Origin: Phycisphaerae bacterium
Lineage (GTDB): Bacteria > Planctomycetota > Phycisphaerae > SM23-33
Length of the DNA stretch: 64,000 nucleotides
Direction: 5' to 3'
Assembly (NCBI GenBank): GCA_011050235.1
Contig: DRGC01000073.1
Coordinates: 62,001 to 126,000, forward strand
Shown here: one piece after another, positions 14,875 through 43,488 of the stretch
Numbering within the stretch: the first letter of the stretch is position 1
How the letters are laid out: every line of letters starts with the position of its first letter
Made by a program: the position numbers and the translations under genes
The notes under the pieces: model-generated
The model's input: the letters and a program-made list of their open reading frames with translations, nothing else
Told to the model about the DNA's origin: nothing
Databases searched by the model: none

Positions 14875-14959
14875 GGAGAGGTGCCGGAGTGGTCGATCGG
14901 GCTGGTTTCGAAAACCAGTGAGCCTTAGGGTTCCGTGGGTTCGAATCCCACCCTCTCCG
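14875..14959 (+). tRNA. tRNA-Ser (anticodon CGA)
   Basis: The acceptor stem GGAGAGG (14875-14881) pairs with CCTCTCC (14952-14958), followed by discriminator G. The anticodon stem CTGGT/ACCAG encloses TTCGAAA with anticodon CGA at 14909-14911. A long variable arm and the GTTCGAATC T-loop make it class II, serine. CCA is not encoded. An integrase gene starts 125 bases downstream, so the 3' end is a candidate attachment site. Confidence 0.96.
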
Positions 14960-14980
14960 CTTTCGCTGTTTCGAGCGCGG

Positions 14981-15009
14981 CGCAACATGCTGAGCGCATG
15001 CATGTTGCG
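14981..15009 (+). repeat. Inverted repeat just after tRNA-Ser
   Basis: CGCAACATG (14981-14989) and CATGTTGCG (15001-15009) form a perfect 9-bp stem around an 11-base loop. It is followed by a T-containing but not T-run sequence. It could be the tRNA terminator or an integrase arm/core site in the element's left end. Confidence 0.5.
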
Positions 15010-15040
15010 TCGCGTTTCGCATTTCTCGACTCACTTCCCG

Positions 15041-15068
15041 GTGCACAGATGGTGCACGCACAGTGCAC
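15041..15068 (+). promoter_or_regulatory. Three GTGCAC palindromes at 11-bp spacing
   Basis: The hexamer GTGCAC occurs at 15041, 15052 and 15063, exactly 11 bases apart, so all three face the same side of the helix. The array ends 3 bases before the GAAGGAG ribosome site of the integrase. Such phased sites suit a repressor or an integrase/excisionase arm site. No known operator is recognised. Confidence 0.5.
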
Positions 15069-15084
15069 GGGAAGGAGTCGCCAC

Positions 15085-16473
15085 ATGGCTACTCGAAAGC
15101 ATTCCAAAGAAAAGAAGAGATTTCGCATCGGCAGTGTCTCCGTGTACAAGCACCGACGTTCGTGGTGGCTTTACTACCGAGAAAATGGTGCTGCAAGGCG
15201 TCGACGAGCCAGCCAGAGCCTCGAAGAAGCAAGAGTGATTGCCGCTGAGGTCAATGCCCAGCTTGCCGGAAATCGCCCGACGATCTTTTCGTTCCAGCCA
15301 ATTTCTGTTGAGGATCTGACTCATCGCTGGCTGGATTATCACGAACACGTTCGACGGTCCTCTGTCGCAACATGCCAACGATACCGCACGGCCGTTGAGT
15401 ACCTCGTGCGTTTCGTTGGGAACGAACCGTCGTGCCGCTGTGCCCATAAGGTGAATGCGGAAGCGTTTCTCCGCTATGTCCGGGCCGTCCAGGTCGCCCC
15501 CAACGGCCACAGGAACGCCCGAAAACGTGGGCTCCGAGATAAGGGCATCAAGTTCATTCTGGGCGCATGCCGGTCAATGTACGGATTCGCCCATTCTCAT
15601 CGGTTCCTCCCGCCCTACGCCGATAATCCTTTCGCAGCCTTAGCGGTCGATCGAATGCCGGTCGAAGACGCCAAGCGAATCCATGTCTTCGCCGCAGCAG
15701 AGGAGTTCAGTTTTCTGTCGGCATGCGATGACTGGCAATTCCCGGTGTTCTACATTCTGGCCAAGACCGGCCTGCGCAGCGGGGAACTTGCTCACCTGTT
15801 GATTGAGGATATTGATCTGGTCAACGAGACGCTGCACGTTCGCAGCAAGTCGGAACTTGGATGGCAGGTCAAGACCAGAAACGCTCGAAGTATCCCCCTG
15901 CCGCCCGAACCGATAGCTGTGCTGCAGCATGTGATCGGACAGCGCCGGGAAGGGGTCCTCTTCTTGCGGCGATCCGTCCAGGACCAACCAGCAGATCACG
16001 TTATGACGCTTTCGCGTGACGCGTCGGCCGCCGAACTGGCCCAGCGGGCCGACTGCCTATCCGACACACTGGGACGACAACTGACCCGCGTCGAGTCGTT
16101 TCGTTTGGCCAAGCGGCTTTGGCGCGACGCCGGCGCGGCCAAGACAGACACCATACGGACCGAGTTCATGCGCATCACGCGCAGCATCGGTTTGGGCCAC
16201 GTAACTGCCCCGAAGTGCTGGCGGCACACGTTTGCCACACTCCTGCAAGAAGCAGGCGTCGATCCTTTGATCCGTCAGCAGACAATGGGACATGCCCCAG
16301 CGGGGCCGCGAGCTGGGGCTTTGGGAATGACCGCTCACTATACCCATACACAAGCCAAAGTCCATCGACGCCAGTTGGCCTCCGCACTCTCCCTACGTCC
16401 TAGGACATCAGATATCGTCGCCGATCAGATTGGCAACGGCGCAAAGACTGAACAGAAAGGGGAACAGCAATGA
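15085..16473 (+). CDS. Tyrosine recombinase/integrase
   Basis: 462 residues from ATG 15085, chosen for the GAAGGAG ribosome site 7 bases upstream; the frame is open earlier but runs into the tRNA. The N-terminal arm-type region (about 1-75) is basic. The SAM-like core-binding domain covers about 80-185 (HRWLDYHEHVRRSSVATCQR). The catalytic domain has Arg in TGLRSGELAHLL, KCWRHTFATLLQ, the MGHA histidine and the Tyr in MTAHYTH. The usual HxxR box reads KxxR. The gene is directly downstream of tRNA-Ser, the common integration target, and its stop overlaps the serine recombinase start (ATGA). Probably the integrase of a tRNA-targeted element. Confidence 0.92.
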   Translation: MATRKHSKEKKRFRIGSVSVYKHRRSWWLYYRENGAARRRRASQSLEEARVIAAEVNAQLAGNRPTIFSFQPISVEDLTHRWLDYHEHVRRSSVATCQRYRTAVEYLVRFVGNEPSCRCAHKVNAEAFLRYVRAVQVAPNGHRNARKRGLRDKGIKFILGACRSMYGFAHSHRFLPPYADNPFAALAVDRMPVEDAKRIHVFAAAEEFSFLSACDDWQFPVFYILAKTGLRSGELAHLLIEDIDLVNETLHVRSKSELGWQVKTRNARSIPLPPEPIAVLQHVIGQRREGVLFLRRSVQDQPADHVMTLSRDASAAELAQRADCLSDTLGRQLTRVESFRLAKRLWRDAGAAKTDTIRTEFMRITRSIGLGHVTAPKCWRHTFATLLQEAGVDPLIRQQTMGHAPAGPRAGALGMTAHYTHTQAKVHRRQLASALSLRPRTSDIVADQIGNGAKTEQKGEQQ

Positions 16474-18629
16474 ATACCAGAGACAATTTGCACGATGCTG
16501 TGATTGCCTACGCCCGCTATTCCTGTGACCGACAGAACCAGCTGTCGGCGAAGGATCAGATCGCCGAGCTTCGCAACTGGGCTGAGACAGAAGTCGGCCG
16601 ACAGGCACCGTTCTTCGAGTTCATAGATGAGGCTGTGTCGGGCGCTGTGGCCGATCGCGACGGACTGCAAGAGGCAATCAAGTGCGCAGAAAGGTACGAA
16701 CGGCCGCTTGTGATCGTCGAATGCATGTCACGATTCGCCAGAAGCGTCTCGGTTTGCTTCACCTACATCAATCGTATCGTCGATATGGGTGGCCGGTTCG
16801 TGTGCATTAAGGAGGGCCTTGACACGAAGCTGAACATGTGGCCGGCAATGGCGGCCATGATGGCTACCTGCGCAGAAATGGAGAACGCTTCGCGTTCCGT
16901 CATGGTGCGTCGTGGCCGTCGGGCTGCCTTCCGCCGCGGACATTCCGTCGGTCGTGTGGGCTATCATTACAGGACGGTGCCTAAGGACCCCGATGACCCT
17001 GACGGCCCCAAGATCAACATCGCCAACGAAGAATTTGGCGAGCAGATCGTCGAGTACTTCGAACGCGTGGCTTCGGGCCAATCGATCGCAGAAGTCAATC
17101 ACTGGGCTAGCTCACTGCCCGGACGGGTCGGCCGCCTGGAGAAGTGGGATTCCGAGGCCGGCCTCCGAATGATCAGAAACCCCAGATACAAGGGCATAGT
17201 CTTGGAGGGCAAGACGGCCTCGGTACTGGAAAGAAGCACCGGAAAACACCGCTGTCGGCCCAATCACGACGGCGATACCGAATGGCGAGAGGATCCAAAG
17301 CAGCGCTTCGTTTCTCCGGATCTCTGGCAACGGGCCAACGACGCCCTTGACAAGACTAAGCATCAGCGGCGTCCGGTCGATTGCTACCCAAGAGACAAGG
17401 AAAACAGAAGATCGGGTGTCTGGCCTTCAGGAGCCCTGTTCTGTGGCTGGTGTGGGGCCAAGATGCATCGGCGCGGGGTTCGCGGCTACAGTTGCTCCGA
17501 TTCGCGGGGCCCATCAGCGTCATGCCGCAACTACCTGCAGGTCAAGACAGATGTTGTTCTGCAGGAAATCCCCCGAACGATTCTCGATCACCTCTTGGAG
17601 ATCCCAGACACATTCGAGGCGTTGTACAAGGAGGTCCGGGAACAAGCCAGAAAAACCGCCACTGGGCAATCACAGGCCCAAGTGAAGCAAGCCCGTAAAC
17701 GCCTAAACACTCTCAAACAGGGGCTCGGCAGGCTTTTCGATCTTGTCGAAAAAGGCCAGGATAGCGCCAATCTGCAAGCTCGAATAGCAAAGAGGCAGAA
17801 GGAGATTGAGGAGTTGGAGGAAAGCATCGCCGCCGCGACCTCCTTGTCGCCGAAGCTGCGCATACCAACGCCATCTGATATCCAAAATGAACTGGAGAGG
17901 CTTGTATCAATAATCGAAGCCGCAGGTGAAGAGCTCTTACCACACTTGCGGGCGCTGGCTCCTAGAATCGATGTGTACCCAGTCAGGATCAAGGGAGCGC
18001 GTAGGCCTGCACTTCTCGCAAAGTTCGACGTGAGCCTTCTGACACTTCTTCCTGCAGAATGGACGGCATTCATGAGGCAACGGCTTGAGGCACCCAAGGA
18101 AGGAGAACTCCCGCCGCTCCTTATGCAGCCCATCGAACTGATTCTGACGAAGCTGCCGGAATACGTGCAAATCGCCCAAGAAGCCAAACGCCTCTTTGAT
18201 GGCGGGATGCCAAACAACGCCATAGCTAGGAAGCTCCGTTGCTGGCCCCAGACGATCCGTAAGGCGATTGCCTTGATGGAACAGCAGAGCGGAGACAGAC
18301 TGGACATCGAAGAGCTGACAGAACTGCCTGATCGCCGACGTCAGAGCAAATTCAGTCCTCCGACTGAAGAGGATGAGGTTATCCCCGGGACCACTGGTCT
18401 CACAAAGAGAATCGTTCAAACCGTCGACGAATTGAGAGAGAAAGGCTACACACCGAATGGTATTGCGGCGAGCGCCGGCTGCCGAGTGTCCACGGTCAAA
18501 AGAGCAATAAAGTGGACCGAGCAACGGAAGCGACTGGACAGTCACTTTAGGAACAGTCCCAAAGTCAAGCGAGGTCCCGTTTCGATGAAGCGGCCACGCG
18601 AACACAGGAAGAAGTCTGAGGATCGATGA
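16470..18629 (+). CDS. Large serine recombinase
   Basis: 719 residues. The resolvase catalytic domain covers about 1-150 with the nucleophile Ser in AYARYSCDRQ and the helix AEMENASRSVMVRRG. The recombinase domain follows with RNPRYKGIVLEGK. A zinc ribbon (FCGWCGAKM ... YSCSDSRG) lies around 325-345 and a coiled coil around 410-455 (ARIAKRQKEIEELEESI). The C-terminal 200 residues contain two helix-turn-helix-like segments (NNAIARKLRCWPQTIRKAI and PNGIAASAGCRVSTVKRAI), longer than in typical phage integrases. It is translationally coupled to the tyrosine integrase by an ATGA overlap. Having both recombinase families in one transcript is uncommon; one may act in DNA inversion or target choice. 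Confidence 0.92.
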   Translation: MNTRDNLHDAVIAYARYSCDRQNQLSAKDQIAELRNWAETEVGRQAPFFEFIDEAVSGAVADRDGLQEAIKCAERYERPLVIVECMSRFARSVSVCFTYINRIVDMGGRFVCIKEGLDTKLNMWPAMAAMMATCAEMENASRSVMVRRGRRAAFRRGHSVGRVGYHYRTVPKDPDDPDGPKINIANEEFGEQIVEYFERVASGQSIAEVNHWASSLPGRVGRLEKWDSEAGLRMIRNPRYKGIVLEGKTASVLERSTGKHRCRPNHDGDTEWREDPKQRFVSPDLWQRANDALDKTKHQRRPVDCYPRDKENRRSGVWPSGALFCGWCGAKMHRRGVRGYSCSDSRGPSASCRNYLQVKTDVVLQEIPRTILDHLLEIPDTFEALYKEVREQARKTATGQSQAQVKQARKRLNTLKQGLGRLFDLVEKGQDSANLQARIAKRQKEIEELEESIAAATSLSPKLRIPTPSDIQNELERLVSIIEAAGEELLPHLRALAPRIDVYPVRIKGARRPALLAKFDVSLLTLLPAEWTAFMRQRLEAPKEGELPPLLMQPIELILTKLPEYVQIAQEAKRLFDGGMPNNAIARKLRCWPQTIRKAIALMEQQSGDRLDIEELTELPDRRRQSKFSPPTEEDEVIPGTTGLTKRIVQTVDELREKGYTPNGIAASAGCRVSTVKRAIKWTEQRKRLDSHFRNSPKVKRGPVSMKRPREHRKKSEDR

Positions 18630-18729
18630 TTACAGCGCACAAAAGTGTGTTGGCAACGAAACGAAGGCCCTGCTAAGCATCAGGGGCACGTTTTTCCACC
18701 TACGCTGCGGCATGAAAGGCTGGTGACCA

Positions 18730-19797
18730 ATGACTAACATTGAGCAACTTAGACTGCTTCTGTCCGGACTGGCGGCCGGAGATTCGCTGGGGGCCACGTC
18801 GGAGTTCGTGACCCCGGCGGCTGTCCCGGAGGTCTATGCCAGGCACAAGGACAAGGGCTGGCCGTTCGCACAGGTCGGCGGTGGGCACTTCGGATGGCGA
18901 CCTGGTGAGCCTACGGACGACACCGATATGGCAATGTGCATGGTGCGATCATATATCGAGCTCGGCCGATTCGATCCCGAAGATCTCGCCGGTCGGTTCG
19001 TCGAGTGGAAGCAGTCCGGCCCGAGGGACATCGGCGCCACCACTGCCCGCACTCTCGGCCAGATCGCTGCGGGCAAGTCGTGGTGCGAGGCGGCTCGAAA
19101 TGCTTATTGCTCATCTCCGGTCAACGCCCCTAATGGATCGCTGATGCGAAACGGCGTGGTCCCTGCGATGGCCGACGATGTTTTCGAAGCTCTGACGATC
19201 AGCGCCCAACAGTCGATCATCACTCACTACAGTCCCCTGGCTGTCTTGACCTGCATGGTTCAGACATGGGCAATCTGGTCCTTGATGGAGGACGAGACTT
19301 GGCCGTTCACCGACGATTGGACCGACAGGTTCGGCGACGTTTGGAAACAATGGCAGGAGCGCTACGACTGCGAGCACGTCGAGCAATGGCTGGTTGAAAC
19401 GGATGAACGCGACGGCCCAGGCGGCCTGCAGCATGCCATCGACATAATTGAGGAAGCCGTGTGGTTGCCGACAGCGTTCAATCCCTTTGAAGTCCGATCC
19501 GGGATTGGCTATTGCCTGACGACGCTGCAAACGGCCGTCTGGGCGCTATGCTGGTCGATCATGGGCGACGAACCGTTCCCGATCGAGACGCTGCCCGACG
19601 GCATTCCACACGAAGTCTTCTTCCGACGCGGCCCCGACACGCTGGCGTGGGTGGCACTGGCTGGCAACGACGCCGATACCACCGGCGCAACGACAGGCCC
19701 GTTGCTAGCCGCAGCCCATGGACAGCTGCCGGACTACTACACCAAGGGCCTGGAAGCTCTGCCCGAATTCGACACCTTGGCTCATGCCAATGCGTGA
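18730..19797 (+). CDS. ADP-ribosylglycohydrolase (DraG/ARH family)
   Basis: 355 residues. Family motifs: SGLAAGDSLGA at the N terminus, GEPTDDTDMAM with the metal-binding TDD, NAPNGSLMRNG and the C-terminal ALAGNDADTTGATTG, which supplies the second metal site. All dinuclear-metal ligands appear present, so the enzyme should remove ADP-ribose from protein, DNA or small molecules. No ADP-ribosyltransferase is encoded beside it. It lies 100 bases downstream of the recombinase pair, probably as element cargo. It could be a stand-alone antitoxin or host-modifying factor. Confidence 0.88.
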   Translation: MTNIEQLRLLLSGLAAGDSLGATSEFVTPAAVPEVYARHKDKGWPFAQVGGGHFGWRPGEPTDDTDMAMCMVRSYIELGRFDPEDLAGRFVEWKQSGPRDIGATTARTLGQIAAGKSWCEAARNAYCSSPVNAPNGSLMRNGVVPAMADDVFEALTISAQQSIITHYSPLAVLTCMVQTWAIWSLMEDETWPFTDDWTDRFGDVWKQWQERYDCEHVEQWLVETDERDGPGGLQHAIDIIEEAVWLPTAFNPFEVRSGIGYCLTTLQTAVWALCWSIMGDEPFPIETLPDGIPHEVFFRRGPDTLAWVALAGNDADTTGATTGPLLAAAHGQLPDYYTKGLEALPEFDTLAHANA

Positions 19798-20808
19798 TGA
19801 TCAATCGGAGAGAGAGCCTTGGCGTCCTCAGAAGAGGATGCTCAACACAAAGACCGGACCTTGCCGGCCACAACTGCCCAGCCGCAGCGTGGGCCGGGCT
19901 TATGCCCAATGCTGTTATCCGCCAGGAACTCCCTTCTGCGCATCGGCGATTGTGCAAAACACCTCCAGCGTTTCCGGTTCAGCTGCCAGCCAGTCACTCA
20001 CAGGGCCGCCGACCTGGGCGCGCTCCTTAGCAACAATCCGCGATTCCCGAGCAACGTCACCGAAAGCGTTCGCCCCACATTGCAAGCGGACTGATTTGTT
20101 CTCGTAACTATGACGCCAACGAGGTCCGCAAGATCCTCCATGTTTTCAGAGCGCCGGACTGATCCCGCTGCTTCCGACAACACTGGGCAGGACCTGCACC
20201 AACCGAATCCAATTGCCTTTCGTTCCCGAATCACTGCAGCACATCCGGCGGGGGAGCATTGACTGATCCGAGCCAGATCACAAGGCTTCGAAGATCGGTT
20301 GGTGTCAGAAGGTCCATCATCTTCAGCGAGGTCCTCTTCGTCATTAGCGTCCTTCTCGGGGAAGCGCCGGCTCCGACGAAACACGCGTCGTCATGCCCGA
20401 GCCGAGCCCGACTAGTGGCCCTACGGATGATTTGACAGGGCGTTTGACGCGAGGTCGCGGGTTCATAACGGGGGCATCATATGGGGTCCTGGAGAGGAAG
20501 TGTGTGTCGGATTTGTCGGGGTTCTGAGGCGGTGAATCGACGCAGCTCCATCCACACACGACCGTAATCGCATGTCAGGCAGACCCCGACACGGTCATTT
20601 CGGACTCGGCAGAGCTTCGAAGGCTACACCTCCGAAGACTTGCGGACGAACTTGCAGGCGAACGCCTGCGAGATCCCTGCCGGACCCGTCGAAACCCATC
20701 CCCCGGTATCTCACATCTGTCTACGCATCCACTCCCCTGCCGGATAGAGTTTTCGGGAGGGACAACGACCGTGCGACGACAAGCTGCTTACTCTCGATGG
20801 CTGCTGGC
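19798..20808. other. Gene-poor gap, possibly element end
   Basis: About 1 kb with no coding region I can support. Short open stretches exist (for example 20572-20760) but show no family motif, and different frames look equally plausible. No copy of the tRNA-Ser 3' end was found here by eye. It may contain decayed gene remnants at the right end of the integrated element. Confidence 0.5.
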
Positions 20809-23451
20809 CTACTGACCGACGCTCGAAGACCGTTGGTTTCCCTCTGGCGACCCGGACGCGCTTGCGTCGGCGTCGGATGCCTTGTCGGGATCACTCCTTT
20901 TCTTGGCGTCATCGGCGTCGGCAGCATCCTCGCCGGCAAGGGCTTTGAGGGCCATTTCGAGGATCTGTTCGTGGAGTTCCGGGGCAAGCGCTTTGCCCTC
21001 TTTGGCTGCCTTCATGTAAAGCGTCGGGTCCAGGCCCTGATGTTTGTTGTCTTTCAGCGCGATCTTGACCTTCTCGCGAATCCGGTCCCACATCGCGGTG
21101 TTGTAATGTTGGTGGCAGGCTACACAGAGACCTTCGCGCTCCATCTTGCTTCGTTCCTCGAAGTTCAGCGGCCGGTCTTCAAGGTGCGGCATATTCTGCA
21201 CCTGTTTGCCGGTCCGCGTGATGAGCTGATCGAGTGAGTAGGGGAATTCGAGAATCCTGGGCACCTGCCATCGGGCCGTCTTGGAACCGGGAATGTCGCC
21301 GTAGTATCCGTCCGCCATGTTGGTGAACAGAGGCCTGTCCGCATTGGCAGGTTCGTCCTTGTTGAGGGCGATCTGACTTCGCGAGTTCCCCAAGCCGTAT
21401 CCCATCGTCTTTGGATTTGTGTGGCAGTTTTCGCAGGTCCGTGCGGGGATAGTGTTGCTGTGGGGCTGAATCGGCGCCATTGTCTGTGCATTGTGGCCGG
21501 TGGAGGTCTTTAGGACCTTGTTCAGGGTCAGGACTTCGCCCTTCTCGTTAATGTAGGTCCAGAAGACCTGGCAGCCGGGAGCGACTGGCGTGACTTTGCC
21601 CCTGAAGTTGATCCCCAGGATGGGGTCTTCCCACCGAAGATAGCTTCGGTTCTCGACAGACACCTCACCATACGTTTTCGTGATCGTCTGCTTTCCCGTC
21701 TTCGGGTGGCGGTTCATCGCTGTGGCGATCCAGTCCGTCCCAACCTTGCGGCGGTCGTACACCGTGTGGCAGCCGTAACACTGCGGCGCCCAATTTGAGT
21801 GACACGCGTAACACTCCAGTTTTGTCAGGTGCTGGGACACCTCCGACATGGCGACCCGCCCCTGCTCGGTCTTCCAATGTTCGTTCAGCTTGATCTCTTT
21901 CAGGAGCGGGACATCATGTTTTTTCTCGTCGAAGGCCCCTTTCAGGATCACCTTGTTTCCCACCCGCGTGATGTGTGTGTTGGGATTGCCCCGCGAGGTC
22001 AAAAGATGATCTTTCCGGTTGGCGTGGTATGTCCCTCGCTCGCCTTCGAGGACGACAGGCGTTCCGTACCCGATAGGAAGCTCCCACGGATACTTCTCCG
22101 GCGTGCCGTGGCAGTCGGCGCAGGAGATCTCCACCTGATGAAGCGTGGTGGGGTAGATATTTCCGTCGCCGTGAACGTCAATGGAGGTGTGACAGTCAAT
22201 GCACTGGAGGCCCTTCTGCAAGTGAATATCGGCGTGGATCGGGATGTAGTCCTTCGTGTAGAGATCCGCCTGCGGATTGCCTTCCCGGTCAAAGGGAGGC
22301 GCCTTCTTGTCGCTTACATAGTCGAACTCGATAACTCCGGCGTAGGTTGTCCCGATGCGTTTGCCCCTCGTGTGGCAGTGGTTGCACTGGGTTGCGGGTA
22401 TTTTGAGGGTGATCTCATGCTTCATCATATGGCCGCGCCGGTCCTTGGGGATCGTGGGATCGTTTCCCTCGTACAGGGCGTCATTCGTGTACAGGACATG
22501 ACAGGCGGCGCACCCGCCCGCTCGGATGTCTCCCCGCTTGCGCCGCCCTTCTTCCCATACGTGGCACCGGGCGCACTGCTTGCGGTAATAGTCGGCGAAA
22601 GAGGCTTTGACCGGATCGTTCCATATCTTCAGGCCTTCCTCGAATGAAGGAATCTGCTTGGACTGCTCGATGCGTTGGATGTGTCCGGTCTCGATCGCTT
22701 TGGCGATCCACTTCTTGTACGTCTCGCTTCCTGAGGTGGGGATGGGGCCGTCGGGATCCGCCATATTGAAGTCGGCGTAGACATATTCGCCCTTGGGGAC
22801 GACGCCGTTGGACATCAACGTGTGCGAAGCCTTGCCGAACTCCAGGGCCATCAGCGCCCGCTGCATGCGGTAGACGTGGTTCGACTGTCCGCTTGGATCG
22901 GTCGCCTTGGAGACAACCGATTTCACCGTTCCTCCGGCCTGGATGCCGAGCACCTTGCCCATGATCGTCGTCAGCGCGCCGCTCTCGCTGTGGCATTTCG
23001 CGCAGCCAAAGCCCTCGCTGACGACCCACATGCTTCCCGGGTTCGGATACAGATTCTTGTGGGCCTCATCCTTTGTGGTGGCTTGGGCGTCGCCCTCGTG
23101 GCAAAGAACGCAACCATAGCCCTGATTGGGGTTCCCGAATGCTGTGGCAATGGCGTCGATCGCCTTCTGCATCTTTGGATTGATTTTCATAATCCCCTCG
23201 TGGCATGAGAGGCAGCCTTTCTCTTCGGCTGCGTCACGGCTCACGATCGCATACTTCCTGGAGAGTTCCGGATCCCACCGGTTGATCTCGAAGTCGGCGT
23301 TCGTGGCTATGGGCGTCACATCGATCTCGGGCTCTTCCGGATCACGCTGCGGTGTGACGGGTCCACACAGGGTGACAACAGTAAAGATCATGACCCCGAC
23401 CGCCGCAATCAACGTGATGACGCCCACGATCAGTCGCCGTTTCGCTTGCAT
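20809..23451 (-). CDS. Dodecahaem c-type cytochrome, membrane anchored
   Basis: About 880 residues with one N-terminal hydrophobic anchor (RRLIVGVITLIAAVGVMIFTVV) and a large periplasmic part. Twelve CXXCH haem motifs are visible: CLSCH, CVLCH, CAKCH, CARCH, CAACH, CNHCH, CIDCH, CADCH, CYACH, CYGCH, CENCH and CVACH. Two haem-free stretches of over 100 residues follow the third and tenth motifs and may form non-haem folds. The C-terminal 60 residues are Asp/Ala/Ser-rich and probably disordered. It is the last gene of a four-gene operon with a polyferredoxin and two CuA proteins, so it likely accepts or passes electrons in the periplasm. I do not recognise a characterised family. The ATG at 23451 is preferred; a GTG at 23460 has GGGAG close by. 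Confidence 0.93.
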   Translation of the reverse strand: MQAKRRLIVGVITLIAAVGVMIFTVVTLCGPVTPQRDPEEPEIDVTPIATNADFEINRWDPELSRKYAIVSRDAAEEKGCLSCHEGIMKINPKMQKAIDAIATAFGNPNQGYGCVLCHEGDAQATTKDEAHKNLYPNPGSMWVVSEGFGCAKCHSESGALTTIMGKVLGIQAGGTVKSVVSKATDPSGQSNHVYRMQRALMALEFGKASHTLMSNGVVPKGEYVYADFNMADPDGPIPTSGSETYKKWIAKAIETGHIQRIEQSKQIPSFEEGLKIWNDPVKASFADYYRKQCARCHVWEEGRRKRGDIRAGGCAACHVLYTNDALYEGNDPTIPKDRRGHMMKHEITLKIPATQCNHCHTRGKRIGTTYAGVIEFDYVSDKKAPPFDREGNPQADLYTKDYIPIHADIHLQKGLQCIDCHTSIDVHGDGNIYPTTLHQVEISCADCHGTPEKYPWELPIGYGTPVVLEGERGTYHANRKDHLLTSRGNPNTHITRVGNKVILKGAFDEKKHDVPLLKEIKLNEHWKTEQGRVAMSEVSQHLTKLECYACHSNWAPQCYGCHTVYDRRKVGTDWIATAMNRHPKTGKQTITKTYGEVSVENRSYLRWEDPILGINFRGKVTPVAPGCQVFWTYINEKGEVLTLNKVLKTSTGHNAQTMAPIQPHSNTIPARTCENCHTNPKTMGYGLGNSRSQIALNKDEPANADRPLFTNMADGYYGDIPGSKTARWQVPRILEFPYSLDQLITRTGKQVQNMPHLEDRPLNFEERSKMEREGLCVACHQHYNTAMWDRIREKVKIALKDNKHQGLDPTLYMKAAKEGKALAPELHEQILEMALKALAGEDAADADDAKKRSDPDKASDADASASGSPEGNQRSSSVGQ

Positions 23452-23540
23452 AATGATCACAATCTCCCGTCTATGTCACTGCCTCTCTGGCAGGAGTGTT
23501 CTTGTGCCGTTGACCGGCTAAGAGCCGACCAACGGGCTTC

Positions 23541-24065
23541 TCATTCGGTTTTCCGTGGACCTGACGCGTCCGACCCGCTGGCCGACCCGCCTGGGCGCTG
23601 CGGGTCACGAACGACGATCTTGAAGAACATGCCGTGGTGTGCACAGCCACAGAAGGCTTTGCACTCGACCAAGTAACTGCCCGGCCGGTCGGCCACAAAC
23701 TGGGCTACCGCCGTGTGCCCGCCCTCCATCTCGATCGGGTCCTTGACAGGGAAGCCCGGCGGGAAAACAAAACTGTGCGTGACGTCCGCACTCGTGATGA
23801 CCAACGCGACCTTCTCGCCCTTGTCGACGATTATCTCCTGGACGCGGTCGAACTTGCCGGACCAGTAGTTGTGCCCGCCGACGTGTTCCTCGGTGACCCG
23901 GCCCTGGCCGGCACTGGCGGTGAGCGTGATGATTCTCACGTCATCCCCGAACTTGGCGCGGAAGGAATAATCATCGTACCACCAGATTCCCACGGGAACA
24001 CCGGCCAGGGCGGCCACAACCAGACCACCGGCCAGAATCTCCAGTATCAGTATCCTCGGGATCAT
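23541..24065 (-). CDS. COX2-like cupredoxin with complete CuA motif (copy 1)
   Basis: 174 residues, one N-terminal membrane helix (about 6-28) and a periplasmic cupredoxin domain. The CuA ligands are all visible: H97 in DVTHSF, then C135, C139, H143 and M146 in CKAFCGCAHHGM (C-x3-C-x3-H-x2-M). Only one helix is present, not the two of classical subunit II. CuA is a binuclear one-electron carrier in oxidases and NosZ, but no COX1 or NosZ is encoded nearby. The start overlaps the upstream cupredoxin stop (ATGA). Acts presumably as an electron carrier to or from the 12-haem cytochrome. Confidence 0.87.
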   Translation of the reverse strand: MIPRILILEILAGGLVVAALAGVPVGIWWYDDYSFRAKFGDDVRIITLTASAGQGRVTEEHVGGHNYWSGKFDRVQEIIVDKGEKVALVITSADVTHSFVFPPGFPVKDPIEMEGGHTAVAQFVADRPGSYLVECKAFCGCAHHGMFFKIVVRDPQRPGGSASGSDASGPRKTE

Positions 24066-24667
24066 TTCTCAGGGCCTTTGGCCTCTCGCTGAGGCTCGTT
24101 CGGCAGCGGAGATCGTTCGGCAACGAGCTTTGCGCCCCCGCGTGAACCGGGTGTGCCCATAAAGACAAAGAAAGCCATTGCCGAAACCGCCACGCCTGTC
24201 ACAAGTCCTATCCCGCCCCACAGCTCGTAATTCGGACTGACGATCATCTCGCCCTGCATGAACGGGTGCATGTACCCGCACGTCTGAGAGCACCGGAAGC
24301 GGAACTTGCCCGTTCTTTCGGCCGTGAAGATGATGCGATCCACCTCCTGGAAATCGTCGTGTTTCGACGGGTGGCGAATCAGCAGTACGCTGTCATCGGA
24401 CGAATCGCCCGGTCTGATCTTCGCGTCGATGTCGTAGCCCTCGAGAAAGAATCCGTGGGTCACGTCGCGGGTGACCAGGTTGATCGACACCCGGTCTCCT
24501 TTGTTCAGCCTGATGATGGGCGGGTCGAAGCTATATCGCTGAGCGTAGATCATCAGATCCACGTCGCCGGCGGGGGCCCCGGTAAGGGATCCGGCCAAGA
24601 CGCCCAGGGCGGTAAAGATTCCCAGAAGCGCCAAGCACCCCAGCAAACAGATCACTTTTCGTTTCAT
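24062..24667 (-). CDS. COX2-like cupredoxin with complete CuA motif (copy 2)
   Basis: 201 residues. An N-terminal helix (about 4-28), a periplasmic cupredoxin domain and a second C-terminal helix (about 147-168) give an unusual topology with the CuA domain between the helices. CuA ligands: H71 in DVTHGFF, then C126, C130, H134 and M137 (CSQTCGYMHPFM). It differs strongly in sequence from copy 1, so the pair is not a recent duplication. The two may form a CuA-CuA relay or heterodimer. Gap to the polyferredoxin gene is 12 bases. Confidence 0.87.
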   Translation of the reverse strand: MKRKVICLLGCLALLGIFTALGVLAGSLTGAPAGDVDLMIYAQRYSFDPPIIRLNKGDRVSINLVTRDVTHGFFLEGYDIDAKIRPGDSSDDSVLLIRHPSKHDDFQEVDRIIFTAERTGKFRFRCSQTCGYMHPFMQGEMIVSPNYELWGGIGLVTGVAVSAMAFFVFMGTPGSRGGAKLVAERSPLPNEPQREAKGPEK

Positions 24668-24679
24668 GGCCGCCGACCT

Positions 24680-26167
24680 CTATCCGACAAAGAGCACGAT
24701 GAGTACCGTCGTCACCAGCAAGAGCAGCACGCAGAGGGGCAGGATGCTCCTGCCGGCCTGGCGCACCTCGCCGTGCATTCGCACCGCAATCTCGAAGCCC
24801 TTCTTCAGCGCCCAGTACAGGCCTAGGGCAAGAACCGGAATCTGGAACCAACCCGTATACTCGGGCAGGACAGGCGTCCAATGAACGTCAGCCGTCCCAA
24901 AGATGTTCCAGCCCCATCCCAACGGATCCGAGATGACCGAAACAATATACGACCCGTTTATCATGACCAGCGGGATGCTGAACGCAATCCAGGCGAACAG
25001 GCCCAAGGGCACCAGTGTGTAGCCGTACTGGATAAACATGTCCTTCACCGTCACGGTTTCCGACCCGGCCAGCCATCGCCCCGCCCGGATGGCCGCATAG
25101 TAAATCAGAGGCAGTCCCACCAACGCCACGAACCACAGTGAGCCCGCATACGTGAGGAAGCCGACCCAGTCGCCGACCTCGCTGATGTTGGCCCAATTCT
25201 TGAGGATGCCCCACGGACCCAACAGCACCACAGAGTAGGTCATGGCCAGCGTAAGCATGATGAACGCCTTCCACACTTCGTCATACCCTTTCAGAAGCGT
25301 GTCGCTGGCGAAAGGCCGGGCGTAAAGCGTGATGTTGTCATGAGGGCAACTCTTGACGCACTCCATGCACAAGCCGCAATAGTTGTTGCGATCCATCTTT
25401 TGCATGTGCTGGAACCAGGGGCACCCCCAGCCCTTCTCGTTTCCGGCCAGGCAGGCCTTTTGCTTGCAGTTGCCGCACACCTCCTTGTTCTTGGAGCGCA
25501 GCGCCAGCATCGAGGTCATCGAGTAGAGGCTCAGGAAGCCGCTGACGGGACAGAGGTACATGCAGAAGGTGCGTTGGCGGAAGATGATGTGAACGATCGT
25601 CGCCATCACGAACAGGCCGCCGAGCACGATGACGCTTACGATGGGCCTGGTAACCAGCAAGGCGCTGAACGTGCACAGCGCAAGAAACCCGAAATTCTGC
25701 AGCCAGATGTTGCTGAGGACTTTTGGCCAACGCCTTCGCAGGCCCGCCATGCGGTTGCGGCCCACGCCGGGTTTGCCCGTTGCCACGCCGATCAACCTGC
25801 GGCGCTGGAACCACTCGCCAAAAAATGGGAACGGACAGACCGTGCACCAGACCCGAGACGCAAACGGAACCATGATGGCGATCAGCGCGAACCACCAGAG
25901 GATCCAGACGAAAACGACGATGATGTTCCGGCTGCCCACCGGCGAGCCGAACACACCGGCGAGTAAGAAGAAATAGAACACCGCCAAGTTGGGAAAGATG
26001 ACGGCGAACTGGAACCATCGGCGCTTAACCAGCCACCGTAGGCCGGGCACCCGCTCCAAAAGGTCTATCCGCCAGGACGCCTTGGGCGCAGCCGCCCCCA
26101 CGACGGCTTCCGTTGGGCCGCCACTGTTCATCTCGTCGGCTGCATCGAACACAGTAGATTCCGCCAT
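24680..26167 (-). CDS. NosR/NapH/CcoG-like membrane polyferredoxin
   Basis: 495 residues, about nine membrane helices with cysteine clusters facing one side. C108 and C111 (WCTVCPFPFFGEW), C202 and C206 (FCMYLCPVSG) match the NapH/NosR type. They are followed by C231, C234, C239 (CGNCKQKAC), C249 and a ferredoxin motif C264-C267-C270-C274 (CGLCMECVKSCP). Proteins of this family move electrons from quinol to periplasmic acceptors, or support maturation as CcoG does. It lacks the N-terminal FMN domain of NosR. First gene of the operon, about 155 bases downstream of the predicted sigma-54 start site. Probably the quinol-side entry to the CuA/multihaem chain. Confidence 0.87.
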   Translation of the reverse strand: MAESTVFDAADEMNSGGPTEAVVGAAAPKASWRIDLLERVPGLRWLVKRRWFQFAVIFPNLAVFYFFLLAGVFGSPVGSRNIIVVFVWILWWFALIAIMVPFASRVWCTVCPFPFFGEWFQRRRLIGVATGKPGVGRNRMAGLRRRWPKVLSNIWLQNFGFLALCTFSALLVTRPIVSVIVLGGLFVMATIVHIIFRQRTFCMYLCPVSGFLSLYSMTSMLALRSKNKEVCGNCKQKACLAGNEKGWGCPWFQHMQKMDRNNYCGLCMECVKSCPHDNITLYARPFASDTLLKGYDEVWKAFIMLTLAMTYSVVLLGPWGILKNWANISEVGDWVGFLTYAGSLWFVALVGLPLIYYAAIRAGRWLAGSETVTVKDMFIQYGYTLVPLGLFAWIAFSIPLVMINGSYIVSVISDPLGWGWNIFGTADVHWTPVLPEYTGWFQIPVLALGLYWALKKGFEIAVRMHGEVRQAGRSILPLCVLLLLVTTVLIVLFVG

Positions 26168-26332
26168 CGTTTGACTTCGCTAGCCTGGGCATCCTCGTGA
26201 CCGAACTGCTTGCTCTGCCGGCACGCCTGCTCGGTTCCTACGTCGGCCCGCCGATGACACGACGCTGCTTCCTGCCGAAACAGGTGTTGCGGGTCTCCGT
26301 ACGGGGACCCCTAGTTGTCTTCCCAGAGATGA

Positions 26333-26348
26333 TGCAAGAAGCGCGCCA
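26333..26348 (-). promoter_or_regulatory. Sigma-54 (-24/-12) promoter of the FeS-CuA-cytochrome operon
   Basis: On the minus strand the sequence reads TGGCGCG-CTTC-TTGCA. This fits the -24/-12 consensus TGGCACG-N4-TTGCA at all but one position, with the invariant GG and GC 10 bases apart. Transcription would start near 26322 and run into the polyferredoxin gene at 26167. The gene on the other side encodes a sigma-54 activator. The 26168-26604 gap holds no gene that I can support. Confidence 0.75.
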
Positions 26349-26473
26349 AATGAAAGAGTAACGTTGCCTCCATTGCGACCGACAACTATAGCCATCTGTT
26401 ACTACGAGAGTTATAGGACGGTCGAACTGGCACGGGATCAGCTTTCGGCCAGATGCGATCCCCTTCCTCCCTT

Positions 26474-26594
26474 GGTCAAAATGGCCGAGCCGAAACGCGA
26501 GTGCTCGCAGATTGTTCGTATAACATGCGATTTACAATTCGGTTAGGATGGGCGGTCAAAGTTTGACCAGAGGACTAAGACTGACCATCTGGTC
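26474..26594. promoter_or_regulatory. Palindromes, candidate activator (UAS) sites
   Basis: GGTCAAAGTTTGACC (26554-26568) is a perfect 7+1+7 palindrome. A half-site with a near-match partner, GGTCAAAATGGCC, lies at 26474-26486, and GACCATCTGGTC is at 26583-26594. They lie 125-250 bases upstream of the -24 element, the usual distance for enhancer sites of NtrC-type activators. Binding is inferred only. Confidence 0.45.
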
Positions 26595-26604
26595 TGCGAG
26601 TGGC

Positions 26605-27975
26605 TCAGGGGGCTCCTGGCAGCAGATCCTCTGGCCCCCGGAGTTTGACCTTGAGCGTGTTCCTGGTGATCCCAAGGATGCGCGCGGCCTCCGAGAGATT
26701 GCCCCCAACACTACCGACGACGTGTGCGACATAGCGCAGCTCGATTTCTCGCAAGGGGGGCATGGCCCCAGATCCCCCTCCTGCCTGTTTGCTGACAAAC
26801 GCCGATGCTTGAACATCTCCCGGGAGTTGCGCAGCCGTCACTTCGCCCGTCTCGCATAGAATCGCGGCGCGTTCCATCATGTTGCGAAGTTCACGAACGT
26901 TGCCCGGCCATGCATAGGCGACCAGGATCTCTTCGACCTCCGGCATTAGATGCATTGGCCCTTTTCGCAACGCCATGGCGGAGCGCTTGAGGAAAGATCG
27001 TGCGAGCAGCACGACGTCGCCGCCACGATCACGAAGAGGGGGGACGCTGATCTGAAACGTGTTTAGCCTGTAAAAAAGGTCTTCGCGGAAAGCCCCCGAC
27101 TGGACACGCGACAAAAGGTCGCGGTTAGTGGCGACGACCAAACGGGCATTCGTCCGGATCTCCCGCTGTCCGCCGACGCGTCGAAACGGCTGTCCTTCCA
27201 CCACGCGGAGCAGTTTTGTTTGAAGATCGGCTTTCATCTCCGAGATTTCGTCAAGAAAGAGGGTGCCGCCGTCGGCCATTTCGAACAGCCCGGCCCGGGC
27301 CTCCTTGGCGTCAGTGAAAGCGCCCTTCTCGTGGCCGAACAGGTCACTTTCCAGCAACTGCTCGGATAAAACGCTGCAGTTCACCTTGATCATTGGCGCC
27401 CCAAAGCGTGAAGAGAGGCGATGCAGCGCGTCCGCCACGAGCTCCTTGCCCGTTCCCGTTTCGCCCGCCACGAGAACGGGTGCATCGGTATCGGCCACCT
27501 TCTGAATCAAGTGGCGAACTCTCTCGATAGCGGCGCTCTCGCCGAGCATCTTTGTGATCTCACCTCTTGCCTGCCGTTCGCGTTCCAAAAGCCAGACGTT
27601 GCGGCGCAAGGTACGCGTCTCGATAGCCCGCTCGACGGTAAATTGCAGCTGCTGGAGATCAAAAGGCTTCGTGACAAAATCGCTGGCCCCCCCCTTCATC
27701 GCTCGAACGGCTGTCTTTATGTCCGGAAAAGCCGTCAAGACGACCACAACCGTCTCCTTGTCCAGGCCCTGCGCCGTCGTCAAGACATCGATCCCCGAGC
27801 CGTCGGGAAGTCGAAGGTCGAGCAGAACAAGGTCTATATTGCGATGTTTCAGGAGGCGCGTCGCCGCCGACACGGTCGACGCGCTGACCACCTCGTACCC
27901 CTTCAACGTAAAGGAGCGTTCCAGAGAGCCCCGCAGGCTCTCGTCGTCTTCAACGATGAGCATCCTGGATTTCAT
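26605..27975 (-). CDS. NtrC-family sigma-54-dependent response regulator
   Basis: 456 residues from ATG 27975, which overlaps the kinase stop (ATGA). A receiver domain covers about 1-120 with acidic pocket VEDDE and phospho-acceptor Asp in LVLLDLRLPDGSG. The AAA+ activator domain has Walker A GETGTGKELVADAL, the sigma-54 loop GAFTDA (a common variant of GAFTGA), Walker B GGTLFLDEISEM and the sensor region. A FIS-type helix-turn-helix is at the C terminus (LSEAARILGITRNTLKVKL). It should activate the adjacent sigma-54 promoter in response to the cognate kinase. Confidence 0.94.
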   Translation of the reverse strand: MKSRMLIVEDDESLRGSLERSFTLKGYEVVSASTVSAATRLLKHRNIDLVLLDLRLPDGSGIDVLTTAQGLDKETVVVVLTAFPDIKTAVRAMKGGASDFVTKPFDLQQLQFTVERAIETRTLRRNVWLLERERQARGEITKMLGESAAIERVRHLIQKVADTDAPVLVAGETGTGKELVADALHRLSSRFGAPMIKVNCSVLSEQLLESDLFGHEKGAFTDAKEARAGLFEMADGGTLFLDEISEMKADLQTKLLRVVEGQPFRRVGGQREIRTNARLVVATNRDLLSRVQSGAFREDLFYRLNTFQISVPPLRDRGGDVVLLARSFLKRSAMALRKGPMHLMPEVEEILVAYAWPGNVRELRNMMERAAILCETGEVTAAQLPGDVQASAFVSKQAGGGSGAMPPLREIELRYVAHVVGSVGGNLSEAARILGITRNTLKVKLRGPEDLLPGAP

Positions 27976-30311
27976 GGTTGGTGCTCCTGTTGGGGTCCGT
28001 CCAATGCGGCGCGCTGGGCGGCCTGTGTGGATGTCGATCCCTGGAGCGCGCACTCCGGAAAGGTCACCGCGACAACCGTTCCCTTGCCTGGTTCACTGTC
28101 GATGTGAATCGTCCCTGCGTGATCCTGAACGATCTGCCGACAGATGGCCAGTCCCAGACCCGTTCCTTCATGTTTCGTTGTGAAAAACGGATCCCATATC
28201 TTGTCAAAGGCCTCTGCGGGGATGCCTTCCCCCTCGTCTACCACCTGCAGGATCACACTGTTGGACGAGCCGCTGACACTCGGCGTCAACACCCCTCGCT
28301 GGATCGTTACGACGATCTCCCCGCCCTCTCGGGACGCATCCGACGCATTCAAAATCAGATTCATGAGCAGCTGCCGAAGTTGGTCCGCAACGCCTGAGAC
28401 CTTCGGTAGATCCTTGGCGATCTCACACCGCAAGGCCACGCCTTTTTCCCGCAGGTTTGCCGAGACAAGCGCGAGCACGCCGTGAGCCACTTCGGCCAAG
28501 GCGACCTCCTGCTTGGCCTGGCTACCGCCAAGTCTGGCCAGTCGGGCGAAGGAACGCAAGAACGCTGCCAGACGGTCCACCTCCGCAAGGACTTCGGTCA
28601 GCAGCCCTTGGCATTCGCCGCATAGGTCGCCGGCCTCCTCAGCCACCTGGATTCTCGTCTTGATGGCAGCCAGAGGGTTACCCACCTCATGCATTACGCC
28701 GGCTGTGATCTGGCCGATCGACGACAATTTGTCCGCACGGGCCATTCCGCTTTGGAGGCGATGACGCATTTCGATCTGACGCTCGACCTCCCGCTTGAGT
28801 TCGACGTTCCACCCAGACAGCCGCGATTGGGCCGCTTGAAGTCGCTCCGTCATCGCATTGAAGTCGTTGGCCAGCCTCTCGATCTCGTCTCCCGTAGTGA
28901 CGTGAACGCGCTTGTCCAGGTCGCCGGCCGCGATATCACGCGTCGCCTGTTGAAGGCGCATGATCGGCCGAGCAAGATAGTCGCCTATCAACACGCCAAG
29001 GACGGCAGCGATGAGGACCACGAAGATCAGAACAACCGAAAGGAATCTCGTCAGACGGCGAATCGGGCCTTCGACAGTGGCTTGTGGCTGGCCGATCAAA
29101 AGAGTCCAATGGCGCTTCGGATCTCCCTGGTCAAAGGCAATGGAGGCGCTGGAAAGGAAAATCCCTCCTGTCTTGGCTGACGGCCCGCCTGGCGAGCGCT
29201 CCAGGATGGCTCTGGCCTCCTCAGGCGCATAGTCATCGGACAAGTGCCGCCCCTTCCCAAGATTGAAAAGGTCTCGCCTCGCCTCCGATTCGCCCACATA
29301 GCCCATGTAGGCGCCGCGTTGATCCACCAACCAGGCTTCCGTCCCGGGGCTCGGAGGTCCAAGAAGAGACATGATGTAGTCCCCGTGGATATTGATTACC
29401 AGCAGACCGCGGCCTATTCCTTTGTCTCCAGAAACAAGGGTCGCATAGCGAACAACTGCCCGGGGAGGTAGTTCTGCCCTGCCGTGTTCGACATTGAGGT
29501 CCATTGGTGAAGCATAGATCTGACCGGATCCAAGAGCGAGGGCGGCTTTCACATAGTATCGATTGCTCTTGTCCTGAAGCTCGGCGGAGTGAACAACTGC
29601 GGCCAGGCCTCCTTCGACGTTCAGCCGTACGACCTCGTGCCCAGCGCTGTCCAGGTATCGCACCTGATAGTACGCCCGCTTGCCTTGTGAGAAAATGAGA
29701 AGCTCCGACTGAACCTTCAGACGCAAGAGATCAACCTGTTCGGGGGTTGCCGTAGCTTCGGCGGCAGCAAGCTGCCGTATCGCCTGGACCTGGCTTAGAA
29801 AACGCAAGTCCTGTTGCACCCCCTGGAGGAACTGCTGAACTACTCGCGCTTTCGATCCGGTGTCAAATTCCACTCGCTGGATCGCGCTTTGCCAAAGAGA
29901 CTCTTGCATGCGTGACATCACAAAGATGCCGACTGTTATCGTTGGGATTACTGCCAGGGCGACCATGGGAATGGCGATCTTCGTGCGCAGACGAACGCTC
30001 TGCAAGCGACGCTTCCATGCCTTCTTCGAGGGCGACAGGATCCTGTCCGCCGCGGCGCCGGGAGTCTGGCGCAAGAGGATGAGGGTTGCAAGGACCGAGG
30101 CGATGGCCGCTGCCGAGAACCCGCGAATGATGTGAAGGGCGTGCATTACTTCAGGACCGGCCCCCCTGAGCCAGGTCCGTTCAACGATCTCATAGCCGAA
30201 GAAGAGCGTGCCAACTGCAAGGAAGCAAATGATGAATACCCGAACCAGATTCGGCTGTTGAACTCGATTGGGCTCCCTCTGGCGGTCCCTTCTAGGCATC
30301 ATCTCCCCCAT
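27972..30311 (-). CDS. Membrane sensor histidine kinase (NtrB-like) partner of the activator
   Basis: About 779 residues; the start is one of several ATGs between 30299 and 30311. Two N-terminal hydrophobic segments are followed by a helix near 112. A large extracytoplasmic dCache-like sensor region spans about 130-420 (QVRYLDSAGHEVVRLNVEGG, YYVKAALALGSGQIYASPMDL). Then come a second flanking helix, a HAMP domain (about 450-480), HisKA with the phospho-acceptor in VMHEVGNPLAAIKTR (about 540), and HATPase with NLILNASDAS, DEGEGIP and GTGLGLAICRQIV. It presumably senses a periplasmic small molecule, possibly the electron acceptor of the downstream operon. Confidence 0.93.
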   Translation of the reverse strand: MGEMMPRRDRQREPNRVQQPNLVRVFIICFLAVGTLFFGYEIVERTWLRGAGPEVMHALHIIRGFSAAAIASVLATLILLRQTPGAAADRILSPSKKAWKRRLQSVRLRTKIAIPMVALAVIPTITVGIFVMSRMQESLWQSAIQRVEFDTGSKARVVQQFLQGVQQDLRFLSQVQAIRQLAAAEATATPEQVDLLRLKVQSELLIFSQGKRAYYQVRYLDSAGHEVVRLNVEGGLAAVVHSAELQDKSNRYYVKAALALGSGQIYASPMDLNVEHGRAELPPRAVVRYATLVSGDKGIGRGLLVINIHGDYIMSLLGPPSPGTEAWLVDQRGAYMGYVGESEARRDLFNLGKGRHLSDDYAPEEARAILERSPGGPSAKTGGIFLSSASIAFDQGDPKRHWTLLIGQPQATVEGPIRRLTRFLSVVLIFVVLIAAVLGVLIGDYLARPIMRLQQATRDIAAGDLDKRVHVTTGDEIERLANDFNAMTERLQAAQSRLSGWNVELKREVERQIEMRHRLQSGMARADKLSSIGQITAGVMHEVGNPLAAIKTRIQVAEEAGDLCGECQGLLTEVLAEVDRLAAFLRSFARLARLGGSQAKQEVALAEVAHGVLALVSANLREKGVALRCEIAKDLPKVSGVADQLRQLLMNLILNASDASREGGEIVVTIQRGVLTPSVSGSSNSVILQVVDEGEGIPAEAFDKIWDPFFTTKHEGTGLGLAICRQIVQDHAGTIHIDSEPGKGTVVAVTFPECALQGSTSTQAAQRAALDGPQQEHQP

Positions 30312-30742
30312 CCGCGCCTTCTTGCTCTGGAACGCCCAAGCCATGACCAAGCGCCTCATGGCAAGGTCCACAGATGATACTCATCTCAGACATCTTCTCT
30401 TCCGCTTCCACTGGACCGTGAGGCGGCAGCCACTTTTCGCACCTCCGCGAGAGCCGCAACGTGAGCAGCCGTTTCGTGCGCCGCCAGTCTACATAGACCA
30501 TCTTAGAGAGCTGCCGGCAGGAATCAATCTTGTGCAGCCCGTGGACAATTCTCCGGCCGTCCTGCGCGGGGGACGGTGAAGTCGGCGTCGGCGGCAAGGT
30601 CGCGCTCGTGGATCGGTATCTCTTCGCGGCCGTCATGGCGCGTGTTCGTCGCCTTCCCGGCCAGACCCCAATATACCTGTTTCGGGCCCGGCCGAGCCTT
30701 GGAACCTTGTGGAATCAGATGGAACTTGTAGGGGAACGCCAC
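30292..30742 (-). pseudogene. Small Cys-containing protein gene split by a 1-base frameshift
   Basis: Two overlapping frames look like halves of one gene. The first runs from GTG 30742 (MAFPYKFHLIPQGSKARPG...) to a stop at 30524. The second frame, entered near a CCCCC run around 30584, continues to 30292 and contains CRQLSKMVYVDWRRTKRLL and IICGPCHEALG. Deleting one C would give a single protein of about 150 residues ending at the kinase start. The Cys pairs may bind zinc, or CGPCH could be a haem motif, but no signal peptide is visible. It lies 17 bases after the YyaL-DsbD gene and overlaps the kinase start. It may be a real mutation or a sequencing error. Confidence 0.5.
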
Positions 30743-33700: not shown

Positions 33701-34668
33701 AGCATCTTCTCGAAGTGCGGCACCAGCCATTCGTCGTCCGTCGCGTAGCGGTGGAACCCGCCGCCCACATGGTCGTGGATGCCGCCCGACCACATCGCAT
33801 CGAGGGTCCTGGTAATCTGCCCAAGCAGCTCCTCGTTGCCCGTGTCGCGGTACTGACGGATAAGTAGTCGCAACGTTCCGTGTGGAGGGAACTTCGGCGC
33901 GCCGCTAAAGCCGCCGTGTCGCGAGTCGAAATTGCGAGTCAGTAGCCCGACCGCCTGATCCACTGCCTGCGACGTCGGCTCACCTTTGCGAGCCAATGCC
34001 TCCCCGCTGCCGATTCGAGCGATGGCTGAGGCCAGTTGGTCGGCCTGATTCTCGACGTCCAGCCGTCTGGTCTTCCATACATTGATCAATCTGGTGAGAA
34101 TCAGCATGAACTGCGGTTTGGGGAAGTACGTGCCCGCCATCCACGGTTTGCCCTCGGGGGTCAGCCACACAGAGTTCGGCCAGCCGCCGCGCTGAGTGAG
34201 TAACTGGGTGGCAAGCATGTACTGCTCGTCGATGTCCGGCCGTTCTTCCCGGTCTACTTTGATCGCAACAAAGTTCTCATTGAGGAGCCTGGCCACCTCG
34301 GCGTCCTCGAAGGACTCCTTCTCCATCACGTGGCACCAATAGCACGTCGAGTAGCCGATGGACACGAAGACGGGTTTATCCTCGCGCCTGGCTTTGTCAA
34401 ACGCCTCCTGGCCCCAGGGATACCAGTCCACCGGGTTGTGCGCATGCTGAAGCAGGTAGGGACTGGTCTCGTTGGCCAAGCGGTTGGTGTGCTGATGGCC
34501 GGTGTTGCCCGCCGAGGCCGCCTGCGCGGCCAGCCCTCTGTCAGGCGGTTCAGTGGCTTCGTACCGGCGCCACATCCACGCGGCCAACACACATGCCGCT
34601 ACGATGGCCAAGACCCTCAACGAGCGCCACCATGCCCGCCTCGGCAAGACTGGGCGACATTCAGTCAT
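30760..34668 (-). CDS. YyaL (DUF255)-DsbD fusion: thiol-disulfide transmembrane reductase
   Basis: 1302 residues. An N-terminal membrane anchor (about 14-31) is followed by a DUF255/YyaL thioredoxin-like domain with redox pair C109-x-x-C112 ([14 protein letters not shown]) and a six-hairpin-glycosidase-like region to about 680. A DsbD alpha-like immunoglobulin domain (about 705-840) follows with [10 protein letters not shown] and the C-x4-C pair in [12 protein letters not shown]. The DsbD membrane domain (about 885-1170) has both key cysteines, [14 protein letters not shown] and [12 protein letters not shown]-terminal thioredoxin domain carries EWCLNC. All DsbD active cysteines are kept. It should import reducing power to the periplasm for cytochrome c and CuA maturation. 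The YyaL module on the same chain is unusual. Confidence 0.92.
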
Positions 34669-41005: not shown

Positions 41006-41101
41006 GACTGTGAGCGAGCCAAGATGCGGCCGAAGCGAACGCTGCAACGGAGCTACGGTCTTGGATTGACAGGGCTCACGGACACTGCGTGGAGACGAAA
41101 C

Positions 41102-42301: not shown

Positions 42302-42311
42302 GGAGCCCCTG

Positions 42312-43460: not shown

Positions 43461-43488
43461 AGCGAAAACATGGTGAGGAGAGAACCTA

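Follow-up and report, generated by a model that had tools for sequence, protein, structure and literature searches.

Within a 64,000-nucleotide (nt) stretch of contig DRGC01000073.1 from a Phycisphaerae bacterium (positions 62,001 to 126,000 of the forward strand, hereafter the window), four adjacent minus-strand genes are rather likely to encode a membrane quinol dehydrogenase of the CuA–NapH9–CuA type together with its own periplasmic acceptor, a 12-haem cytochrome. In the mechanism we propose, the NapH-like protein would oxidise (mena)quinol and let the electrons travel along its iron-sulfur centres, both CuA proteins, tethered to the membrane, would accept them singly on the periplasmic side, and the 12-haem cytochrome would receive them from CuA and either reduce a fairly high-potential periplasmic acceptor or store and relay electrons to one. 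The module would act as a partner-swapping quinol-to-periplasm adaptor, in which an ExtM-type 12-haem cytochrome replaces NarGH, AioBA or other partners. The sequence itself shows which genes are present, their cofactor motifs, their conserved order, the exchange of partners and the match to a promoter; the direction of flow, the order of the carriers, the acceptor and the inducer are what we infer.

A compact operon of a polyferredoxin, two CuA proteins and a 12-haem cytochrome had been claimed in the original prediction, and all four genes were found in place: the NapH-like polyferredoxin (FeS; 24680..26167, 495 amino acids), the CuA-type cupredoxins CuA1 (24062..24667, 201 amino acids) and CuA2 (23541..24065, 174 amino acids), and the c-type cytochrome cyt12 (20809..23460, 883 amino acids), which carries an N-terminal hydrophobic anchor and exactly 12 CxxCH motifs. 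The CuA1 and CuA2 genes share 4 nt, and a gap of 12 nt separates FeS from CuA1, so the arrangement is operon-like. The FeS protein contains CxxCP and CxxxCP motifs, two 4Fe-4S motifs and 4+5 transmembrane helices, and its cysteines are invariant across 53 relatives with the exception of C234. Its AlphaFold model (predicted local distance difference test, pLDDT, 88; predicted template modelling score 0.88) supports the nine-helix, two-4Fe-4S NapH-like assignment. A fold search of the PDB with this model returned no match at E < 0.001, and VIA Z values were no higher than helical bundles would give, which does not in itself make the fold new; a profile search of PDB sequences returned nothing. 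The protein had been described as NosR/NapH-like, and the likeness to NapH stood while that to NosR did not, no FMN-binding domain being found (Pfam gave only Fer4_5). Both CuA proteins match the COX2 and NosZ CuA models, including the COX2 Pfam model, and both carry the C-x3-C-x3-H-x2-M loop with an upstream histidine, so that two adjacent proteins have intact ligands (His71, Cys126, Cys130, His134 and Met137 in CuA1; His97, Cys135, Cys139, His143 and Met146 in CuA2). Hydrophobic segments are located at the N-terminus and apparently the C-terminus of CuA1, and at the N-terminus of CuA2.

No haem-copper oxidase subunit I (COX1 family) was found in the window's genome, which is 95% complete, or in either of the two related genomes that share the operon, and the CuA proteins therefore do not serve an oxidase. 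That they are stray subunits II of cytochrome c oxidase from a damaged oxidase cluster, as the COX2 Pfam match might suggest, is extremely improbable, being contradicted by the absence of COX1 from the three genomes and by the conservation of gene order and CuA ligands. Since non-oxidase CuA centres here adjoin a NapH-like quinol dehydrogenase, electrons would leave the quinol pool for the periplasm. The potentials of CuA centres are usually high, well above that of menaquinone, which suggests that the acceptor is not of low potential but lies at about +200 mV or higher.

Recurrence of the gene set and partners of the module

To place the operon among its relatives, GTDB contigs were scanned with the FeS protein alignment, and the best 80 of 285 matches were fetched as loci. 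The same FeS–CuA1–CuA2–cyt12 order was found in Planctomycetota bacterium B3T3L8 (L127/L183), with identities to the window of 76% for FeS, 58% for CuA1, 58% for CuA2 and 74% for cyt12; this genome also has an extra CuA1–CuA2 pair with a cytochrome that ends after the fifth haem motif (L182). In MohnsGC08_bin181, a contig with FeS (72%) stops just inside an apparent CuA1, and a second contig opens a little ahead of CuA2, which is followed by cyt12 (71%). Because no other close CuA1 copy was found in that genome, the gap most likely holds CuA1, and the synteny in Planctomycetota that had been looked to as a check is thus present in B3T3L8 and, over two contigs, most likely in MohnsGC08_bin181. 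In the latter genome FeS lies directly behind a NarG-H-J–CuA–NapH–CuA set, 178 nt after its last gene. In the trees, the FeS proteins from the three operons group as one clade (support 100/100), as do the operon-linked cytochromes (96/99), and with the recurring gene order these clades support well the coherence of the quinol-to-periplasm operon that had been predicted. The 12-haem cytochrome was absent from 34 other genomes searched within the same family, and plasmid searches gave only weak relatives, with no four-gene set in the five neighbourhoods read.

The CuA–FeS–CuA core is found in Planctomycetota, Acidobacteriota, Myxococcota, Chloroflexota, Omnitrophota, Bacteroidota-related groups, Desulfobacterota, Methanoperedens and others. 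Among the best 80 matches, where the counts depend on two peptide patterns and are not frequencies, the core adjoins NarG/NarH-type partners in 16 loci (mostly with an ethylbenzene-dehydrogenase-gamma-like subunit), single-CxxCH proteins with a barrel-like tail in 13 (often with a plastocyanin-like protein alongside), a pentahaem cytochrome in 10 (mainly Desulfobacterota), and AioB/AioA with MauG-type proteins in 4. The single-haem partners had no Pfam or NCBIfam match, and we call them porin-cytochrome-like from their sequence alone. Judged by these neighbourhoods, the core is widespread as a module and pairs with at least five kinds of partner, including the 12-haem cytochrome. The FeS proteins linked to nar genes form their own clade, with L120 as the sole exception, and this clade includes a paralogue from the window's genome, which has a nar-type copy of the module on another contig (C83). 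The set on C83 comprises TAT-exported (twin-arginine translocation) NarG, NarH, NarJ, a CuA fusion, a second CuA protein and the FeS paralogue, with NarG 44% and NarH 54% identical to their Methanoperedens counterparts. No NarGH is found within the window operon, being present instead with the C83 paralogue.

In the sister locus L076 (3639-18238), a kinase, a regulator and a sigma-54 site precede CuA1, FeS and CuA2, which are followed by a pair of MauG-type dihaem proteins and by AioB and AioA (TIGR02693/02694 above cut-off), so arranged that an arsenite-oxidase-type enzyme is apparently wired to the CuA–FeS–CuA module. L134 (5754-11401) and similar Desulfobacterota loci carry a pentahaem cytochrome with weak ExtKL similarity, a plastocyanin-like protein and an FeS protein fused to a CuA domain.

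These partners bear on the direction of flow. AioBA and porin-cytochrome-like proteins are donor-side enzymes in known pathways, and the nearest orphan relatives of the 12-haem cytochrome are held by anammox bacteria, which are lithotrophs; electrons might accordingly run in reverse, with the cytochrome taking them from a donor in the periplasm or outside the cell and the CuA–NapH part returning them to the quinone pool. We consider this unlikely, since quinone reduction from CuA would usually be uphill, and the best-documented relative, that of Methanoperedens, is assigned to nitrate reduction.

Promoter and regulators

The near-consensus -24/-12 promoter that had been predicted to face the operon was located at 26333..26348 on the minus strand (TGGCGCGCTTCTTGCA, TGGCGCG-CTTC-TTGCA), about 165 nt from the FeS ATG and with one mismatch to the consensus. 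It is the only match with at most one mismatch within the window, and of 350-nt stretches drawn at random from the fetched loci about 0.3% contain a site scoring as well; matches with at most two mismatches are not enriched, 13 being observed in the window against 11.9 expected. Just upstream on the same strand, as also predicted, domain matches identified an NtrC-family response regulator with receiver, sigma-54 AAA+ and Fis-type helix-turn-helix domains (26605..28053) and a sensor histidine kinase with a Cache-type sensor domain and HAMP (27972..30371). Together with the RpoN encoded in the window's genome, the GG/GC -24/-12 site and the NtrC-type activator make up the sequence features looked for in sigma-54 control, and sigma-54, controlled by the adjacent kinase/NtrC pair, probably drives transcription of the operon. 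A perfect palindrome, GGTCAAA-G-TTTGACC (26554..26568), lies about 205 nt upstream of the sigma-54 site and is a plausible candidate for the activator site (GGTCAAA-N-TTTGACC), with the qualification that 17 of 100 whole-window shuffles contain at least one match with at most two mismatches.

The layout of kinase, regulator, sigma-54 site and operon recurs in L076/L097 (one planctomycete locus), L099 and L126, and the window regulator is 66% identical to that ahead of the CuA–FeS–CuA–MauG–AioBA genes of L076. No sigma-54 site was found ahead of FeS in the two closest four-gene operons (L127, L096), and sigma-54 control would therefore be a trait of this locus and of some sister modules rather than of the four-gene set itself.

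The 12-haem cytochrome and its acceptor

The 12 CxxCH motifs of cyt12 are located at residues 83, 117, 153, 296, 317, 359, 420, 447, 550, 561, 676 and 779. No homologue with a known function and partner set, which the original prediction had named as a finding that would speak against it, was found. The nearest named family is ExtM (model NF040943, E 1.2e-75), of which cyt12 is a distant relative. ExtM is a 12-haem cytochrome of the Geobacter ext cluster, which is associated with selenite and tellurite, and its role is unproven (PMC5877670). A profile search of PDB sequences with cyt12 recovered only a short stretch of 6lod_A.

The relation to ExtM raises the question whether cyt12 forms part of a conduit that serves the reduction of extracellular acceptors or metalloid oxyanions, like the one proposed for the ext cluster. 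The weak match of the pentahaem partner to ExtKL adds to this, as two ext-type cytochromes would then pair with the module. We regard the conduit as distinctly unlikely: the operon has no outer-membrane porin or other ext gene, cyt12 scores 255 bits against a curated ExtM cut-off of 800, and the role of ExtM from which the analogy is drawn is not itself established (PMC5877670).

Relatives of cyt12 with 52-58% identity were also found in anammox genomes without the CuA–NapH–CuA module, the assignment to anammox being by hydrazine synthase in those genomes tested. Strong relatives are retained by only part of the sampled anammox-family genomes, with some copies broken, so the cytochrome is accessory in that family. 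Interrupted 12-haem genes were seen in three loci (L030, L042 and L182), two in anammox-family genomes (G156, G202) and one in B3T3L8. Across 19 cyt12 relatives all 12 motifs are conserved, and outside them only seven histidines are invariant, together with Met538 and Cys630. With seven invariant non-motif histidines for twelve haems, non-histidine ligation or an open haem is therefore possible.

Such an open site would be in keeping with the 12-haem protein itself being a reductase of an N-oxide, most likely nitrite, that acts downstream of the NarGH-type nitrate reductase. The TAT-exported NarGH-type enzyme of the window's genome and the position of FeS behind the nar operon in MohnsGC08_bin181 are consistent with this. 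That nar neighbourhood, with the lack in the window's genome of an NrfA above cut-off and of HAO-type and Cu-nitrite reductase matches (NirS was not searched), makes nitrite a candidate acceptor on circumstantial grounds. Against it, no catalytic motif was identified, the operon lies apart from nar in the window's genome and on the B3T3L8 contig, and the cytochrome is accessory in the sampled anammox family, as described above; on balance an N-oxide reductase does not seem likely. Bolder, and quite doubtful, is the suggestion that cyt12 is a new terminal reductase (for nitrite or another N-oxide, for example) fed by CuA–NapH9–CuA, and that enzymes of this family account for a reductive step, so far without an assigned enzyme, in those anammox bacteria that have orphan copies.

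Several results weigh against a quinol dehydrogenase with a 12-haem acceptor, the reading we prefer. The curated NapH-family cut-offs are not reached, FeS having only weak TIGR02163 and Fer4_5 matches (30.5 bits against 213 for TIGR02163), and no NapG partner was found among the operon genes by gene calls, Pfam and curated-family searches. The AlphaFold model of cyt12 from 19 sequences failed (pLDDT 37) and was not used, and as a consequence no catalytic haem could be placed. To these are added the third case of synteny, which crosses an assembly gap, the missing sigma-54 site in the closest operons, and the AioBA and porin-cytochrome-like partners, which could feed electrons inward.

The gene set suggests a route, possibly a general one, by which bacteria and archaea that have no haem-copper oxidase may pass electrons from quinol to periplasmic redox enzymes, with CuA at work in a setting other than an oxidase or nitrous oxide reductase. 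As a single membrane module occurs with five or more kinds of partner, the swapping of partners can be put to the test, and the operon gives access to the ExtM-like 12-haem cytochromes, a so far uncharacterised group, those of anammox bacteria included.

Genomic surroundings and comparison with known systems

In the region 14875-30500 of the window, a tRNA-Ser(CGA) is directly followed by a tyrosine integrase and a serine recombinase, and from the tRNA to about 30.5 kb the G+C content is 0.58-0.60, compared with roughly 0.62-0.65 on either side. Because of these genes and the lower G+C, the operon and its regulators may form part of a genomic island; the window was searched for a direct repeat of the tRNA-Ser 3' end and contains none, so an integrative element is not shown. 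Upstream of the kinase on the same strand, a gene at 30760-34668 encodes a 1302-amino-acid fusion of DUF255/thioredoxin and DsbD-like parts, possibly for thiol reduction in haem or copper maturation. Farther on, an arsenosugar-type cluster (41024-44433) consists of an ArsM-like methyltransferase below the curated cut-off, a PHO4-type phosphate transporter and an ArsS radical SAM protein (TIGR04167 above cut-off), and 45451-46371 encodes a RIC/YtfE-type iron-sulfur repair hemerythrin protein, below cut-off, of a type often linked to nitric oxide stress.

Compared with the NapGH and NapH-MauN quinol dehydrogenases (TIGR02163), the window FeS shares the four N-terminal helices, the CxxCP motifs and the two 4Fe-4S motifs, whereas it falls far below the family cut-off, has five more helices and is accompanied by CuA proteins instead of NapG. 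NosR is likewise a membrane polyferredoxin serving a CuA protein, but the window FeS is without a detected FMN-binding domain and its operon without NosZ. ExtM shares the 12 haems and is homologous over cyt12 residues 289-691; its cluster has Rieske/cytochrome b partners and a porin, none of which is found in the window operon, where cyt12 has CuA–NapH instead.

The closest system is the Methanoperedens operon NarG–NarH–NarJ–Orf7–HCOII–NapH–HCOII with a NapH of nine transmembrane helices, described by Arshad and co-workers in 2015, which is highly transcribed and was proposed to encode a possible unusual nitrate-reducing membrane complex (PMC4683180). In both operons a NapH-like protein is extended at its C-terminus by five helices and accompanied by two CuA (subunit II-like) proteins, and for both a membrane-bound supply of electrons to an enzyme in the periplasm is proposed. 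The window operon differs in that the partner is a 12-haem cytochrome and not NarGH, in the order FeS–CuA–CuA–cytochrome, and in being preceded by a sigma-54 site and an NtrC-type regulator. As the Methanoperedens operon had already been described (PMC4683180), the CuA–NapH9–CuA module is not new, and the novelty claimed for the pathway in the original prediction does not extend to this core, of which the window's genome holds a nar-type copy as well. For the four-gene set no description was found in the literature covered, which leaves out most subscription journals, and no paper on the pairing was found; the new element is the 12-haem partner of an already known module.

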